Source of the DNA: a virus
IMG/VR virus record: IMGVR_UViG_3300018412_000021
Span: 1-52,258 of that record
Reading direction: 5' to 3' (one strand)
Length of the DNA stretch: 52,258 bases
Of the stretch, positions 9,598 through 31,600 are shown piece after piece (position 1 is the stretch's first letter; the number at the start of each line of letters is the position of its first letter). Position numbers and translations under genes: made by a program. The notes below the pieces were generated by a model that was not told where the DNA came from, did not search any database, and saw nothing but the letters and a program-made list of their open reading frames with translations.

Positions 9598-9920
9598 CAC
9601 ATGAGAGCACACCCCATAGGCGGTTTTCTGATATAGTACATGCTGTTCTAATAATGTTTTTGTTGATACTCCTGTTAGTTGTTGGGAGTTTGTCTATCGG
9701 GTATATGGTGGAGAGTGCTCAGAACAATACCAAATATGAGCTTTTAAGGAACGAGAATCAACAACTGATGAACGTATTGGAAGTGAATATTTTGGAAGGA
9801 GTGGACAGGGAGTTGTCTGCACTAGAGAGAAGGATTTTTACTGCGGAAAAAAGAATACAAGCTCTTGAATCTAAAGTTCAAGATATGGAACAACAAGAAG
9901 AAAGAACCTACCACCCGTAG
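9594..9920 (+). CDS. Membrane protein with coiled coil, end of late operon
   Basis: 108 residues with GTG start overlapping the previous TGA (GTGA). Membrane segment at residues ~15-38 (VLIMFLLILLLVVGSLSIGY), then heptad-rich coiled coil (LSALERRIFTAEKRIQALES). Same topology as the gene before it, so the two may act together, for example in lysis timing. It is the last gene before the terminator at 9978. Confidence 0.6.
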   Translation: MTHESTPHRRFSDIVHAVLIMFLLILLLVVGSLSIGYMVESAQNNTKYELLRNENQQLMNVLEVNILEGVDRELSALERRIFTAEKRIQALESKVQDMEQQEERTYHP

Positions 9921-9977
9921 AGGTAAGGTTCTCGTTTACATTCGAGAGAATGTTCCTCGTTAATATAATAAGAAGAA

Positions 9978-10016
9978 AGCCCCTTCACCCGTTAAAAGGT
10001 GTTGGGGCTATTTTTA
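9978..10016 (+). terminator. Intrinsic terminator of late region
   Basis: AGCCCC/GGGGCT outer stem (9978-9983 with 10004-10009), a TT/TT mismatch, and CACC/GGTG inner stem, followed by ATTTTTAT. It separates the plus-strand late genes from the converging minus-strand genes. Confidence 0.85.
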
Positions 10017-10026
10017 TGTCTGTGAT

Positions 10027-10461
10027 TTATTCAGACACCTCCCCATTCAAAGCATTATCCAAACTAGCCTCAAGACGAGTGATCTTCTCTTTCAGAAATT
10101 CATTCTCTTTCTTGATTGAGTTATTAGTGTCATTCAACTTCTTCATTTGATCTTTGACAGAAGTATACTGTGTCATAGGCAGACATTCATAGTTCTGAAG
10201 GATAGCATCACTCTCACCAGCAGAGATAATCAAATCTGGGATAGGGTCGCTGTATCCACCATCACGGCCCGTAAAAGTGGTGTGCTTACCCACAGAGATA
10301 GTGGACTCAAGTTCCACAACCTTGTTATCACTATAACAGCTATTCACAGCCACTACGTTAGTTTCAAACATCCGAAGCATATCCTGAACATACTCGATAT
10401 TCTCTGTTGTCAGGTTGATGATAAGGTCTGTAGCACCATTAGTTTTAACTTGCATTAGCAT
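10027..10461 (-). CDS. Hypothetical protein with C-terminal coiled coil
   Basis: 144 residues from the ATG at 10461, which has AGGAG 7 bases before; a longer in-frame start at 10491 lies within the upstream gene. The N-terminal half is mixed alpha/beta; residues ~95-140 form a coiled coil (NNSIKKENEFLKEKITRLEA). Last gene of the minus-strand replication cluster. Function unknown. Confidence 0.6.
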   Translation of the reverse strand: MLMQVKTNGATDLIINLTTENIEYVQDMLRMFETNVVAVNSCYSDNKVVELESTISVGKHTTFTGRDGGYSDPIPDLIISAGESDAILQNYECLPMTQYTSVKDQMKKLNDTNNSIKKENEFLKEKITRLEASLDNALNGEVSE

Positions 10462-11694: not shown

Positions 11695-12585
11695 TTATTC
11701 ACAAGCAACACAATTATCTTTACTTGCTTGGATTCCAGCCTTTGAGTAGATGTAGTACAGACCGAGAATCTTCTCACTACGAATAGCATACTCATGCACC
11801 TTGGCAATGTACCCTTCGTCTTCTCCAGCAGAAAAGAAAAGGTTGAGCGATTGCCATTGGTCTAGGTAGTCACCTCTGGCCTCAGCTTGCCGTAGAACAG
11901 CAAACTGGTCAATCTCAAATGCTGTCTTGAACCAAGTCTTCTCTTCGTCTGTAAGCCAAGAAACCCCTTGAACACTCCCCATAGCGTCACGAACTTCTTC
12001 GATGTTCTTCTTACTGTACACACCCTTCTCTTTCATCAGAGAGAGCAAGTGTGGGTTTACACGATCAACTTCACCCCCTGCACTACGTTGTGTATACACC
12101 ATAGCAACATCTGGGCTGATACCTTCAGACACACCACCCATAATGAGGGAGCTTGATTTCGTGGGAGCTACGGCCATTGTGTGGCTGTTAGCCCTACCAT
12201 ACCCTTTACACCACTCAGGTTCACCCCACTGTTCAGCACTCCACTTAGTAGCCTTCTCAGCCTCTTCTCGGATGTGTTTGAAGATAGTCCGGTTTAGTGT
12301 GTAAGCCTCCAACCCCTCGAACGGAATACGTTTACGTTGGTACAAAGAGGCAAGACCACACACACCAAGTCCCAAAGCCCTACTCTTCCTCGTAAATGCT
12401 ACAGCTTTCTCAAGACCGTGAATGTTCTTAGCTCGTTCAATAAATTCTTGAGCCACACAATCCAAGAACACCGTAGCTACAAACACAGCATCCGTATCCT
12501 TCCACTCATCCCAAAGGTCTACATTCATACTGCTCAATACACAAGTGTATGTGTAATCTTTACTAGAGTGTAGTGTAATTTCGTT
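11695..12585 (-). CDS. nrdA: Ribonucleotide reductase large subunit, exon 2
   Basis: Second exon, 296 codons plus stop, read from AAC at 12585. It continues exon 1 in frame as LC-NEITLHSS. CVLSSMNV corresponds to the second redox cysteine (E. coli C462), APTKSSSLIMGGVSEGISP to the conserved class I loop, GLYYIYSKA to the tyrosine pair of the radical path, and the C-terminal KDNCVACE to the swinging redox cysteines. The complete spliced protein is about 562 residues, shorter than bacterial NrdA (~750), with no ATP cone. An ATG at 12537 could give a truncated product, but it lacks the active-site region. Confidence 0.9.
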   Translation of the reverse strand, partial: NEITLHSSKDYTYTCVLSSMNVDLWDEWKDTDAVFVATVFLDCVAQEFIERAKNIHGLEKAVAFTRKSRALGLGVCGLASLYQRKRIPFEGLEAYTLNRTIFKHIREEAEKATKWSAEQWGEPEWCKGYGRANSHTMAVAPTKSSSLIMGGVSEGISPDVAMVYTQRSAGGEVDRVNPHLLSLMKEKGVYSKKNIEEVRDAMGSVQGVSWLTDEEKTWFKTAFEIDQFAVLRQAEARGDYLDQWQSLNLFFSAGEDEGYIAKVHEYAIRSEKILGLYYIYSKAGIQASKDNCVACE

Positions 12586-12817
12586 CAGTTGTGTTCAATA
12601 CAGCTCGCTACACTATACCAGTTCTCTTATGAACTTCTGCATGTCCCCATGCAGCTCAGACTATATCATCACCAGTTGGTGCTCACCGCTTCCACTCGCT
12701 TGAGTGTACTCCCTTTCGGGATAGTCGTTACACGTTCCTAATAAACCAGGCTTCGCACGGGATTAACTGTTCTAGTCTTCCCCCGTTTTCAATGAGTTTT
12801 AATTGTGCTGGCACTTA
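12586..12817 (-). other. Group I intron in nrdA (no internal ORF)
   Basis: 232-nt intron. P1: the last six exon bases TTGTGT pair with the intron guide GCACAA (12808-12803), with a U-G wobble at the splice site. P7: GACTAT (12726-12721) pairs with ATAGTC (12664-12659). A P9-like hairpin CTGCATG-GGGA-CATGCAG lies at 12654-12637. AACGGGG and AATCCCGTGC near its 5' part fit the P4 region of T4-type introns, and the last base is G. Removal joins the two NrdA halves in frame. No homing endonuclease lies inside. Confidence 0.88.
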
Positions 12818-13615
12818 ACACAATTGGGCTGCTTTCACATCAAGGTTATGGTCTACATACCATTGAGGACGTTTACGGTTTGCCTTATCTGGAAAGAAGA
12901 GATAACCCTTCCCTGTAATCATCTTCACTTTGTTCATCTTCTGGAATCGCTTCAGGGCATCTTCATCTCCAGAATCCATCTTCTCTGTATCAGAGTCGTG
13001 CCAGTTCCAACCGATGTTATTACCGTCAGGGTGTTGCTCAAGATGATTAGCCACTTCGTAGAAGTCTCCGTGAGAGATTGGTAAGTATCCTGCCCAACTA
13101 CCTCTTCGACTTGTCCCCTGTACAACATACTCCATGTCCTTCTGCACCCCTTGGATGATAGGAAGGACACCGCTACTCTTACCACCATCACTAATTGGTG
13201 TACCACGAGGGCGAATATCACCGAGATATCCTGCTGTACCAAAACCATACTTGGTCAAGATAGCCGTTTCATGCTTGCTTGTATAAATCCCATCAATCGA
13301 ATCAGGGAAGTACGATCCAGCGCAACTGACGGGCAAACCACGAGACGTTCCAGCATTCGCTAAGATGGGGGTTGATAAGCTCAACCATCCTTTCCACATA
13401 ATGTCAAAGAAACGGTCTTTCCATACAGCAGGGTCTGGTGTGTGTGCAGCCATAGTAGCAGCAATGCGTTGATACTGTTCTTTCGGGTTACTCGCTTGGT
13501 AAAGGTACTTCTCCTTAAACAACTGCCAACTGCCTGTACTCCAATGGAGGGGCATCAACCCCTCAGCTTGTAGTTTCTTTCGCTCTTCACTAAGTTTGTC
13601 GTAAACACTGCTCAT
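12818..13615 (-). CDS. nrdA: Ribonucleotide reductase large subunit, exon 1
   Basis: First exon, 266 codons from ATG 13615, which overlaps the nrdB stop (ATGA). With exon 2 it makes the class I ribonucleoside reductase alpha chain, which converts ribonucleotides to deoxyribonucleotides. STPILANAGTSRGLPVSCAGSY carries the first redox cysteine; the exon ends in KAAQLC, whose last Cys aligns with the thiyl-radical cysteine (E. coli C439). Unspliced reading stops at TAA three bases into the intron. Operon order nrdB-nrdA follows ThyX and a small linker gene, a dNTP synthesis unit. Confidence 0.9.
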
Positions 13616-14607
13616 TCTTCTAAATTCCCCCAAGTAAACCCATTAGCATCCCAATTACGAACATACTGATTACCTTGACTATTAAAGAAGTCTTGTGCAG
13701 CATATCCGTTAATACCTTTATAAAACCAAACAGCTACAGGGTTGTAGTCAACTTTATACAGGTCTTCATAACCCATATTGCGAAGACACAAGTTAATACG
13801 ACTTTGTGCAAAATGCTCAAGTTGGGTGTCAGTAATCCCTTCAATACGCCCCTTCTCAAAGATTTTACGAATAATTACTTGCTCGTGTTCAAATACCTTG
13901 TGGGCTGCTTTGTAAACATCTTCTTTCAGCTTTTCTTTGTAGTCCTCATCAACCTCACCCACTTGTTCTTTCTCTGCAAGAAGTGTACGGAACAACCAAG
14001 CCGCTGCCTCAGAGTGAAGAGCCTCGTCTCGGCTTGAGAAGTTGATACCACTCACTACGTTCAACAGCTTATTCTTCCCTTGTTGCTGGAAGTGCTTCAA
14101 GAAAGCAAACGATGAATAGAGGACAGCCCCCTCACCAAACACAAAACCACCTAAAGCTCTCAAATCATCGTCTTGATCTAGCACAGACTCTAGGTAGTCA
14201 ATACGCTGTTTCAACTCAGGGTCGTTGATATAACTATCGTAGAACTCATCTGTTGCAATACCAAGCTCTTCGTTCAAAGTCTTGTAGAAGAATAGGTGAC
14301 TAGCAAACTCAACTGCACCAAACAAAGCAGCCATTGGTTGAATATCGGCAGGTCGGGGGAACTTCTTCATTACAAAGTTCAACCAAAACTCATCGCCAAT
14401 AATCTGTTCGTATTTGGAAAACAGCTTTAATGTGGTGATAACACCATGACTCTCTGCTTCAGTCATATTCACCAACATATCTTGCTTATCCTTAGCCACC
14501 TTAACTTCAAAGTGGGGCCAGAACACCTCAAGCTGCTTATTCATGTAATCAACAGCTTCGGGGTAGTCCACTGTAAATGTTGTTTTGGGTGTTTGGATGC
14601 GTACCAT
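13612..14607 (-). CDS. nrdB: Ribonucleotide reductase small subunit
   Basis: 331 residues, ATG overlapping the preceding TGA (TGATG) with AAGGAA before it. A ferritin-like four-helix protein that provides the radical for NrdA. Likely metal ligands are in VEFASHLFFYK (Glu, His, and a Tyr in the radical position), FGEGAV and SSRDEALHSEAA. In E. coli the first pair is E-x2-H; here it is E-x3-H, which I believe occurs in other phage NrdB proteins. The C-terminus (NGFTWGNLEE) is the peptide that binds the large subunit. Confidence 0.9.
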   Translation of the reverse strand: MVRIQTPKTTFTVDYPEAVDYMNKQLEVFWPHFEVKVAKDKQDMLVNMTEAESHGVITTLKLFSKYEQIIGDEFWLNFVMKKFPRPADIQPMAALFGAVEFASHLFFYKTLNEELGIATDEFYDSYINDPELKQRIDYLESVLDQDDDLRALGGFVFGEGAVLYSSFAFLKHFQQQGKNKLLNVVSGINFSSRDEALHSEAAAWLFRTLLAEKEQVGEVDEDYKEKLKEDVYKAAHKVFEHEQVIIRKIFEKGRIEGITDTQLEHFAQSRINLCLRNMGYEDLYKVDYNPVAVWFYKGINGYAAQDFFNSQGNQYVRNWDANGFTWGNLEE

Positions 14608-30462: not shown

Positions 30463-30491
30463 TTGACTTTTCAGGTTCTATTTGATACAAT
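30463..30491 (+). promoter_or_regulatory. Promoter of the structured RNA
   Basis: TTGACT (30463-30468), 17 bases, TACAAT (30486-30491). Predicted start about 30498, four bases before the closing helix of the RNA candidate. Confidence 0.7.
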
Positions 30492-30497
30492 ACTAAA

Positions 30498-30940
30498 GTA
30501 AATCCCAATCTCTAACCGTAAGGACATTGGTTGGGTGAGCACAGAGTTTGTCGGGACTACTACGTTTGGCTCTGTGTGATTTGTGTAAAAGGAATGGTAC
30601 TAGACACAACCGTAGCTCGAAATCTGAAATCGGTGTACTGGCACTCGTGTAAGGAGTGAATGACAGATAGGAACAGCAGCTTACCATGATCTGTTCCCCA
30701 CCCAAGAAGAATCCTACAACTTCTTGGGAGTCCTGTAAAGGATAATCTAACCTCGTCTGAATTGGGATGGCAGAAATGCTTCTGTAGGTCAGTCAGTGGG
30801 AAGATTGGATATGAGCCTATATTCTCTCGAAGCAGTGTTGGCCGCAGGGTTGACAGGGGTAGATTCATAGTCTATCTTATACTGTATGGGAGGGTATAGG
30901 GTAGCTCTATCCAAATCTTCCTGAACTGATTGGGATGATT
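30498..30940 (+). ncRNA. Large structured non-coding RNA candidate
   Basis: About 440 nt without a plausible ORF. Perfect or near-perfect helices: closing stem ATCCCAATC/GATTGGGAT (30502-30510 with 30928-30936); CTAACC/GGTTGG (30512-30517, 30529-30534); CACAGAG/CTCTGTG (30540, 30570); TTGTGT/ACACAA (30581, 30604); CACTC/GAGTG (30642, 30654); GGAACAG/CTGTTCC (30670, 30691); CCCAAGAAG/CTTCTTGGG (30701, 30720); CAGAA/TTCTG (30771, 30780); a 16-pair helix with two bulges (30799-30815 with 30905-30921); and CCTATA/TATAGG (30816, 30895). A promoter starts just upstream. A GTG-start nuclease gene follows at 30976. It does not fit a group I intron or tRNA; it recalls large phage RNAs such as GOLLD or ROOL in style only. 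Confidence 0.75.
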
Positions 30941-30975
30941 ATACTTATAAGTAATATTTATTAGGAGAGGTAGAA

Positions 30976-31509
30976 GTGAAATTATATGAATACATGATAA
31001 TGAGAAATGGTGTAGGTAAGAACGGAGGTATAAAGTCCTCATTGTCATCAAAAGAGTTTCAACTTTTAGGAATCAACAATTCCAAAGGTTGGGCTAGGAA
31101 GAATAAGAATCTAGAGATTTCTGATACTCTGTTAAAGCAACTTCTTGTGTTTGCAAATAACAACAAAATTCAAAATAGCAAATCATTACAACGATTACAG
31201 ACTAATTTTAGTTCAGCGGATAATAAATTCTTGTATCTTATGTATAATGACACCAATAAAATCCATAAAATAGGGATAAGTGTTGATCCTCAAAAGAGAT
31301 CAAGGGCGCTATCTTCTTCCAGCGGTTTAAGGGTCACGTTGAAGGCTATGTGGAAAGTCGATCTGTATGCAAGGGATGTTGAAAGGTCTTTACATCACAG
31401 CCTTAAGGATTTCCGCACACTTGGAGAATGGTTTGACTTGACTTCTATTGAGACTGTAGTACCCTTAGTAGAAAGTCTCATACCTTGTCAGTTTAAGAGG
31501 ATAGTCTAA
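30976..31509 (+). CDS. T5orf172/MUG113-type GIY-YIG-like protein
   Basis: 177 residues, GTG start with AGGAGAGG before it. The C-terminal ~85 residues read FLYLMYNDTNKIHKIGIS, then DPQKRSRAL, VERSLHHSLKDFRTLGEWF, the T5orf172 domain of the GIY-YIG nuclease group. N-terminal part is basic (KNGGIKSSLSSKEFQLLG) and may bind DNA. It may be a homing-type nuclease. It is the first protein gene after the structured RNA and probably on the same transcript. Confidence 0.78.
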   Translation: MKLYEYMIMRNGVGKNGGIKSSLSSKEFQLLGINNSKGWARKNKNLEISDTLLKQLLVFANNNKIQNSKSLQRLQTNFSSADNKFLYLMYNDTNKIHKIGISVDPQKRSRALSSSSGLRVTLKAMWKVDLYARDVERSLHHSLKDFRTLGEWFDLTSIETVVPLVESLIPCQFKRIV

Positions 31510-31571: not shown

Positions 31572-31600
31572 TTGACATAACACCCACTTACTAATACCAT
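31572..31600 (+). promoter_or_regulatory. Promoter before UvrD-like helicase
   Basis: TTGACA (31572-31577), 17 bases, TACCAT (31595-31600). It is preceded by AATACCTA, the same bases as before the promoter at 38675. Confidence 0.65.

Follow-up and report, generated by a model that had tools for sequence, protein, structure and literature searches.

What is encoded by the roughly 440 bases at the divergent junction of this phage genome, and does the stretch act as an RNA? The DNA analysed, here called the window, is the whole stretch of 52,258 nucleotides, an IMG/VR phage record. A preliminary description had proposed, from the letters alone, a large and highly structured non-coding RNA at this junction. 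We examined its fold, its homologues and its neighbourhood, and we compared it with known phage RNAs. The features below are numbered in window coordinates; L074 and L091 are homologous loci and L031 is a more remote one, so that "four members" means these three and the window.

30463-30491, +: sigma70-like promoter, TTGACT-17-TACAAT with extended TG, from its hexamers; counterparts in L074, L091 and L031
30498-30941, +: whole structured non-coding RNA element (z = -5; covariation with L074 and L091; covariance models R1 and R2)
30502-30536, +: P1, 5' hairpin CCCAAU/GUUGGG; a hairpin of different sequence in all four members; in the window its 5' strand could alternatively pair with copy A or B
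30539-30577, +: P2, hairpin with conserved loop GUUUGUCGGGACUACNACG; three pairs changed on both sides; kept in L031
30581-30609, +: P3, hairpin; GUGU/ACAC becomes GCGC/GCGC in L074
30625-30636, +: core UCUGAAAUCGGU, which may pair with copy B (RNAalifold, complementarity search); invariant, hence incapable of a covariation signal
30642-30658, +: P5, hairpin; CACUC/GAGUG, CUCCC/GGGAG and CCCUC/GAGGG among members
30670-30697, +: P6, hairpin with conserved loop; GGAACAG/CUGUUCC becomes GGAAUAG/CUAUUCC
30701-30728, +: P7, hairpin whose loop AUCCUA (30711-30716) is complementary to x; helix kept in L074 and L091 despite sequence changes
30730-30743, +: P8, hairpin; GUCCU/AGGAU, GAUUGC/GCAAUC and GCUUGC/GCAAGC among members
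30751-30769, +: copy A, CCUCGUCUGAAUU followed by x (GGGAUG); motif exact in the four members
30770-30785, +: P9, hairpin, from helix comparison among members
30798-30922, +: P10, long branched hairpin flanked by copies A and B; fold z in four members, many double-sided changes
30920-30937, +: copy B, CCUGAACUGAUU followed by x (GGGAUG), the 3' end of the conserved RNA, from motif comparison
30938-30966, +: AU-rich linker, putative processing region; 81-91% A+T in the four members
30976-31509, +: T5orf172/MUG113 (GIY-YIG-type) homing-endonuclease-like ORF, 177 aa (Pfam E = 4e-11 and 7e-7; PHROGs)
31572-31600, +: second promoter-like site, from its hexamers, before a UvrD-type helicase gene

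The region folds far more stably than expected by chance

The predicted fold of 30490-30945 (+) has an energy of -158.4 kcal/mol, compared with -129.2 +/- 5.8 kcal/mol in dinucleotide shuffles (z = -5.0), and none of 100 shuffles matched its stability. This bears out the earlier expectation that random sequence would not hold so much structure. The opposite strand is near chance (z = -1.25). When all 450-base segments on both strands of the 52 kb were scanned, the region was among the two strongest signals. The other, at 9600-10350, scores on both strands and includes a terminator-like hairpin, AGCCCCTTCACCCGTTAAAAGGTGTTGGGGCT, at 9976-10015 between convergent ORFs.

The excess stability is concentrated in the 3' part (30700-30936, z = -6.9). 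The 5' part (30498-30700) has by itself an energy no better than chance (z = -0.1), and the structure proposed for it comes only from the comparison of homologues. Two further elements of the preliminary description are present as claimed, namely a 9-pair hairpin at 30701-30728, predicted with a pairing p of 1.00, and a long bulged helix, which we place at 30798-30816/30904-30922. The segment that runs from copy A to copy B and contains P10 folds strongly in each of the four members (z = -5.8, -5.3, -5.0 and -4.2).

The promoter-like site ends at 30491, just before the RNA, and matches 10 of 12 consensus positions in addition to its extended TG; the sigma70-like promoter claimed for the element is thus present, and hexamers of this kind lie at the same place in the other three members. 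We found no terminator between the RNA and the downstream ORF. The absence of a convincing ORF also held up: there is no sense ORF, and antisense frames of 102 and 70 aa gave no family match. The 102-aa frame is closed in L074 and L091 by stops and frame-breaking indels, so the conserved protein frame that would have spoken against an RNA did not appear, and a search of IMG/VR seeded with the antisense ORF found nothing.

The RNA has few and patchily distributed homologues

By blastn against phage and plasmid collections, the window RNA had no homologue. A remote candidate came from loci that encode relatives of the window's T5orf172 protein: in L031, a non-coding stretch upstream of its own T5orf172 gene has CCTCGTCTGAATT and CCTGAACTGATT in common with the window, in the same order. 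L074 was found by a two-motif scan of IMG/VR, and L091 by a scan with a conserved 16-mer. Over about 420 bases, nucleotide identity is 75% for window/L074, 77% for window/L091 and 84% for L074/L091. The homology begins at P1 or P2 and stops shortly after copy B; the sequences on either side are unrelated. There are three clear members, namely the window, L074 (record G017) and L091 (record G018). The L031 stretch is the best R2 place within its locus, but at only 8.3 bits (E = 0.18) and with no R1 match; it is therefore a probable rather than a proven member of the family.

Among 36 phage records, R1 and R2 match these three only. The 33 other records, among them KLEP7 and M1 as the closest relatives by primase, gave no detectable RNA with either model, so the distribution is patchy within the searched collections, which may leave out records near-identical to the window. 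Close primase relatives (16 IMG/VR loci, KLEP7 and M1) gave no RNA by blastn or covariance model, and the primases of the other RNA-carrying phages are about 20-23% identical to that of the window. There was likewise no match in ten other INPHARED phages chosen by polymerase or primase similarity, or with R1 in 369 genomes (the class of a Gammaproteobacteria MAG), a search that contained no positive control. The two-motif scan of genome contigs returned four matches, which we judged to be chance.

Several other upstream regions were considered. The leaders of M1 and L002 at the same junction are unrelated to the window RNA and gave no fold signal, the M1 value being a weak z of about -1.4; the M1 leader (L066, Pseudomonas phage vB_PsaM_M1, OP714164.2, 3168-3440) is an unannotated stretch of about 270 bases directly behind a promoter-like site at this divergent junction, and is not homologous by model. 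The long gaps that precede the T5orf172 genes of L041, L044, L045, L057 and L062 had no fold signal. In L042 (240-560), a promoter-like site and a hairpin-rich stretch of about 180 bases lie upstream of a T5orf172 gene and have CTATAGGGTTA and GCCTGA in common with L031; this is a possible remote relative, the relation being unproven. In the exonuclease gene of phage M1 (L069, 28563-28602), 41 coding bases match the P10 region of the L074 RNA at 85%, probably by chance.

Compensatory changes point to selection on RNA pairing

Covariation in homologues had been named as a check on the proposed RNA, and compensating changes were found in the three clear members. Counted on MAFFT alignments, 20 of 113 pairs across the whole RNA had changed on both sides and still paired, compared with 8.7 in shuffles and 3-6 in slid controls; the figure of 20 is an undercount because the whole-RNA alignment puts P7, P8 and P9 out of register. 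The counted structure is the window's own fold, which favours the window structure on cells paired and less so on double changes. In the 5' core, both sides had changed in 8 of 28 pairs, compared with 3.0 in shuffles and 0-2 in slid controls. Independently, RNAalifold gave 21 pairs with double changes. P1, P2, P3, P5, P6, P7, P8 and P9 are all retained with different sequence among members. Together with the fold z of -5, these changes support the large, highly structured RNA that had been claimed, and compensation in so many helices points to selection on pairing.

The 9-pair closing helix of the preliminary description fared differently. It is present in the window, where forcing 30502-30510/30928-30936 costs 0.3 kcal/mol, but it is not conserved: the best match between the 5' end and copy B is 5 pairs in L091 and L031, versus 9 in the window, and the 9-pair match in L074 lies in another register. 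In all four members the 5' end forms a local hairpin in place of a conserved closing helix.

A duplicated motif suggests a two-state switch

The conserved long-range feature is a repeat, CUGA(A)UU-x, which occurs twice and flanks P10. The element x reads GGGAUG in the window and UACAG in L031, while L074 and L091 share UAGGAG; it is the same in copies A and B within each genome (4/4) and differs between lineages. The P7 loop is complementary to x, being AUCCUA in the window and CUCCUA in L074 and L091, and in L031 a stretch upstream of copy A, CUGUA, is complementary to its x. The loop and x could thus form 6, 6, 6 and 5 base pairs in the four members, with x and its complement changing together. 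Loop:x complementarity taken alone is not significant against loop shuffles (P = 0.05, 0.16 and 0.13), and the best partners of copies A and B in a complementarity search are not significant in most members. RNAalifold pairs copy B with the invariant core at 30625-30636. One pairing partner facing two identical acceptors suggests two exclusive folds, and the RNA may be a two-state switch.

A probable early RNA followed by different endonuclease genes

The RNA sits between a leftward replication block (polymerase, primase-helicase) and a rightward early block. Each of the four phages has it at this divergent junction, where it opens the early block: after the RNA come the AU-rich linker and then a homing-endonuclease-type gene. 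This gene directly 3' of the RNA went unmentioned in the preliminary description. The window and L031 carry the T5orf172/GIY type and L074 an endonuclease VII-like gene (phrog_1035, E = 3e-11); in L091 the gene is the CapR-domain remnant of an endonuclease of phrog_681. L026 and L027 encode relatives of the window GIY protein and lack the RNA, so the two are separable; an obligate pair of RNA and GIY is ruled out by these relatives and by the RNAs that precede other endonucleases. In L017 (6959-7460; same gene in L024), a relative of the window GIY protein is broken by an in-frame TGA, and the frame resumes behind it.

The most likely reading, to which we give a probability of roughly 45%, is that the region encodes a new, large, early phage RNA that is free-standing and capable of switching, with the endonuclease genes as passengers. 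We favour it because of the promoter-like site on the 5' side, the AU-rich linker on the 3' side, and the retention of the RNA in L091, where only a remnant of the endonuclease is left. The RNA would be produced early after infection, cut from the downstream mRNA within the linker, and would then act as a free structured RNA. The P7 loop and/or the core at 30625-30636 would pair with either copy A or copy B, giving mutually exclusive folds, and the conserved RNA locus would be the landing site of the endonuclease genes. Culturable phages of Pseudomonas, Acinetobacter and Pseudaeromonas are relatives of the carriers, and the function should therefore be approachable by ordinary phage genetics.

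The main rival is a cis-acting leader, which would either control the next gene as a riboregulator or serve the early block as a put-like antitermination element. Because no terminator was found between the RNA and the ORF, it could be an ordinary leader; the RNA always heads the early block, first behind a promoter-like site, its two-acceptor layout is switch-like, and among early phage genes HK022 put is reported to be an RNA element that suppresses pausing and termination (PMC9378689). However, the RNA is far larger than a leader needs to be, the downstream gene is not the same between phages, and the helicase gene in the window has a second promoter-like site before it. We regard a leader as a serious but rather unlikely alternative.

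The exchange of endonuclease types behind a constant RNA that is patchy and far better conserved than the neighbouring proteins, and the way in which x and its complement change together, would also fit a mobile ribozyme- or guide-like RNA that works with the endonuclease, as in group I introns or HEARO/IscB, with x and its complement serving target recognition. Yet the RNA occupies one genomic position every time instead of being scattered, has no Rfam intron or HEARO match, persists in L091 beside a mere remnant, and is absent next to some GIY relatives, so that we find this quite unlikely. Its boldest form, a new mobile or RNA-guided system in which a constant RNA core is combined with interchangeable homing endonucleases of unrelated folds and a variable internal guide of about 6 nt pairs with duplicated sites, is improbable. 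Similarly doubtful is that the conserved DNA is mainly a homing-endonuclease recognition or insertion site, kept by homing with co-conversion and not by RNA function: a homing-endonuclease-type gene does lie directly 3' in four of four phages, but different endonuclease families would not be expected at one common site, and the compensatory changes in many helices indicate selection on RNA pairing. A structure that arose by chance, or a protein gene on the antisense strand, for which the 102- and 70-aa frames could speak, is very hard to reconcile with z = -5, the covariation and the broken 102-aa frame in L074 and L091.

Comparison with known RNAs

The preliminary description had raised GOLLD, ROOL, group I and HEARO as possible families, and none of them matched: no Rfam family matches the RNA region at gathering or relaxed thresholds. 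For group I, the model RF00028 is silent here, though the same model detects an intron elsewhere in the window. That intron (12637-12848, -; Rfam 64 bits) lies between ORFs 11695-12537 and 12815-13633 (-), which by eye resemble two parts of the ribonucleotide reductase large subunit.

HK022 put is a short two-hairpin element at the head of an operon, whereas the window RNA has about ten helices. The likeness between them is that of a structured RNA with a role on early phage genes, which put is reported to have (PMC9378689). The sRNA1 and sRNA2 of PAK_P3, a Pseudomonas phage, are similar in being intergenic but differ in being about 100 nt long and abundant late in infection (PMC4933390). HEARO, the omega RNA of IscB/IsrB, is likewise structured, measures a few hundred nt and immediately precedes an endonuclease ORF (PMC9755519, PMC12286853), and the window RNA resembles it in this layout. 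It differs in having no RF02033 match and in what follows it, namely a T5orf172/GIY gene, an endonuclease VII-like gene or a CapR remnant, with no RuvC+HNH protein (IscB/IsrB) among them.

Nearest in kind are GOLLD and ROOL, non-coding RNAs from phages and prophages that are large, intricately folded and of unknown function (PMC12286853). The window RNA is also a large structured phage RNA, but it matches neither in Rfam (E <= 5). From promoter-like site to AU-rich linker it measures about 440 nt, compared with 659 nt for ROOL env-120, whose kind is marked by a homo-oligomeric RNA cage, and often over 800 nt for GOLLD; the 3' region of GOLLD is universally conserved, whereas the conserved 3' half of the window RNA has no Rfam match. 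GOLLD and ROOL lie near tRNA genes, whereas the window RNA heads an early block in a window that has no tRNA. With its conserved structure, compensatory changes and lack of a protein frame, the window RNA belongs to the broad kind of large structured phage non-coding RNAs, and it is a new family within that kind, set apart by Rfam. Only a few large and ornate RNAs of this kind exist in phages, and they are unexplained; to these the window RNA adds a separate family, distinguished by its compact size, early-gene position, testable two-state pairing and recurrent homing-endonuclease-type neighbour.
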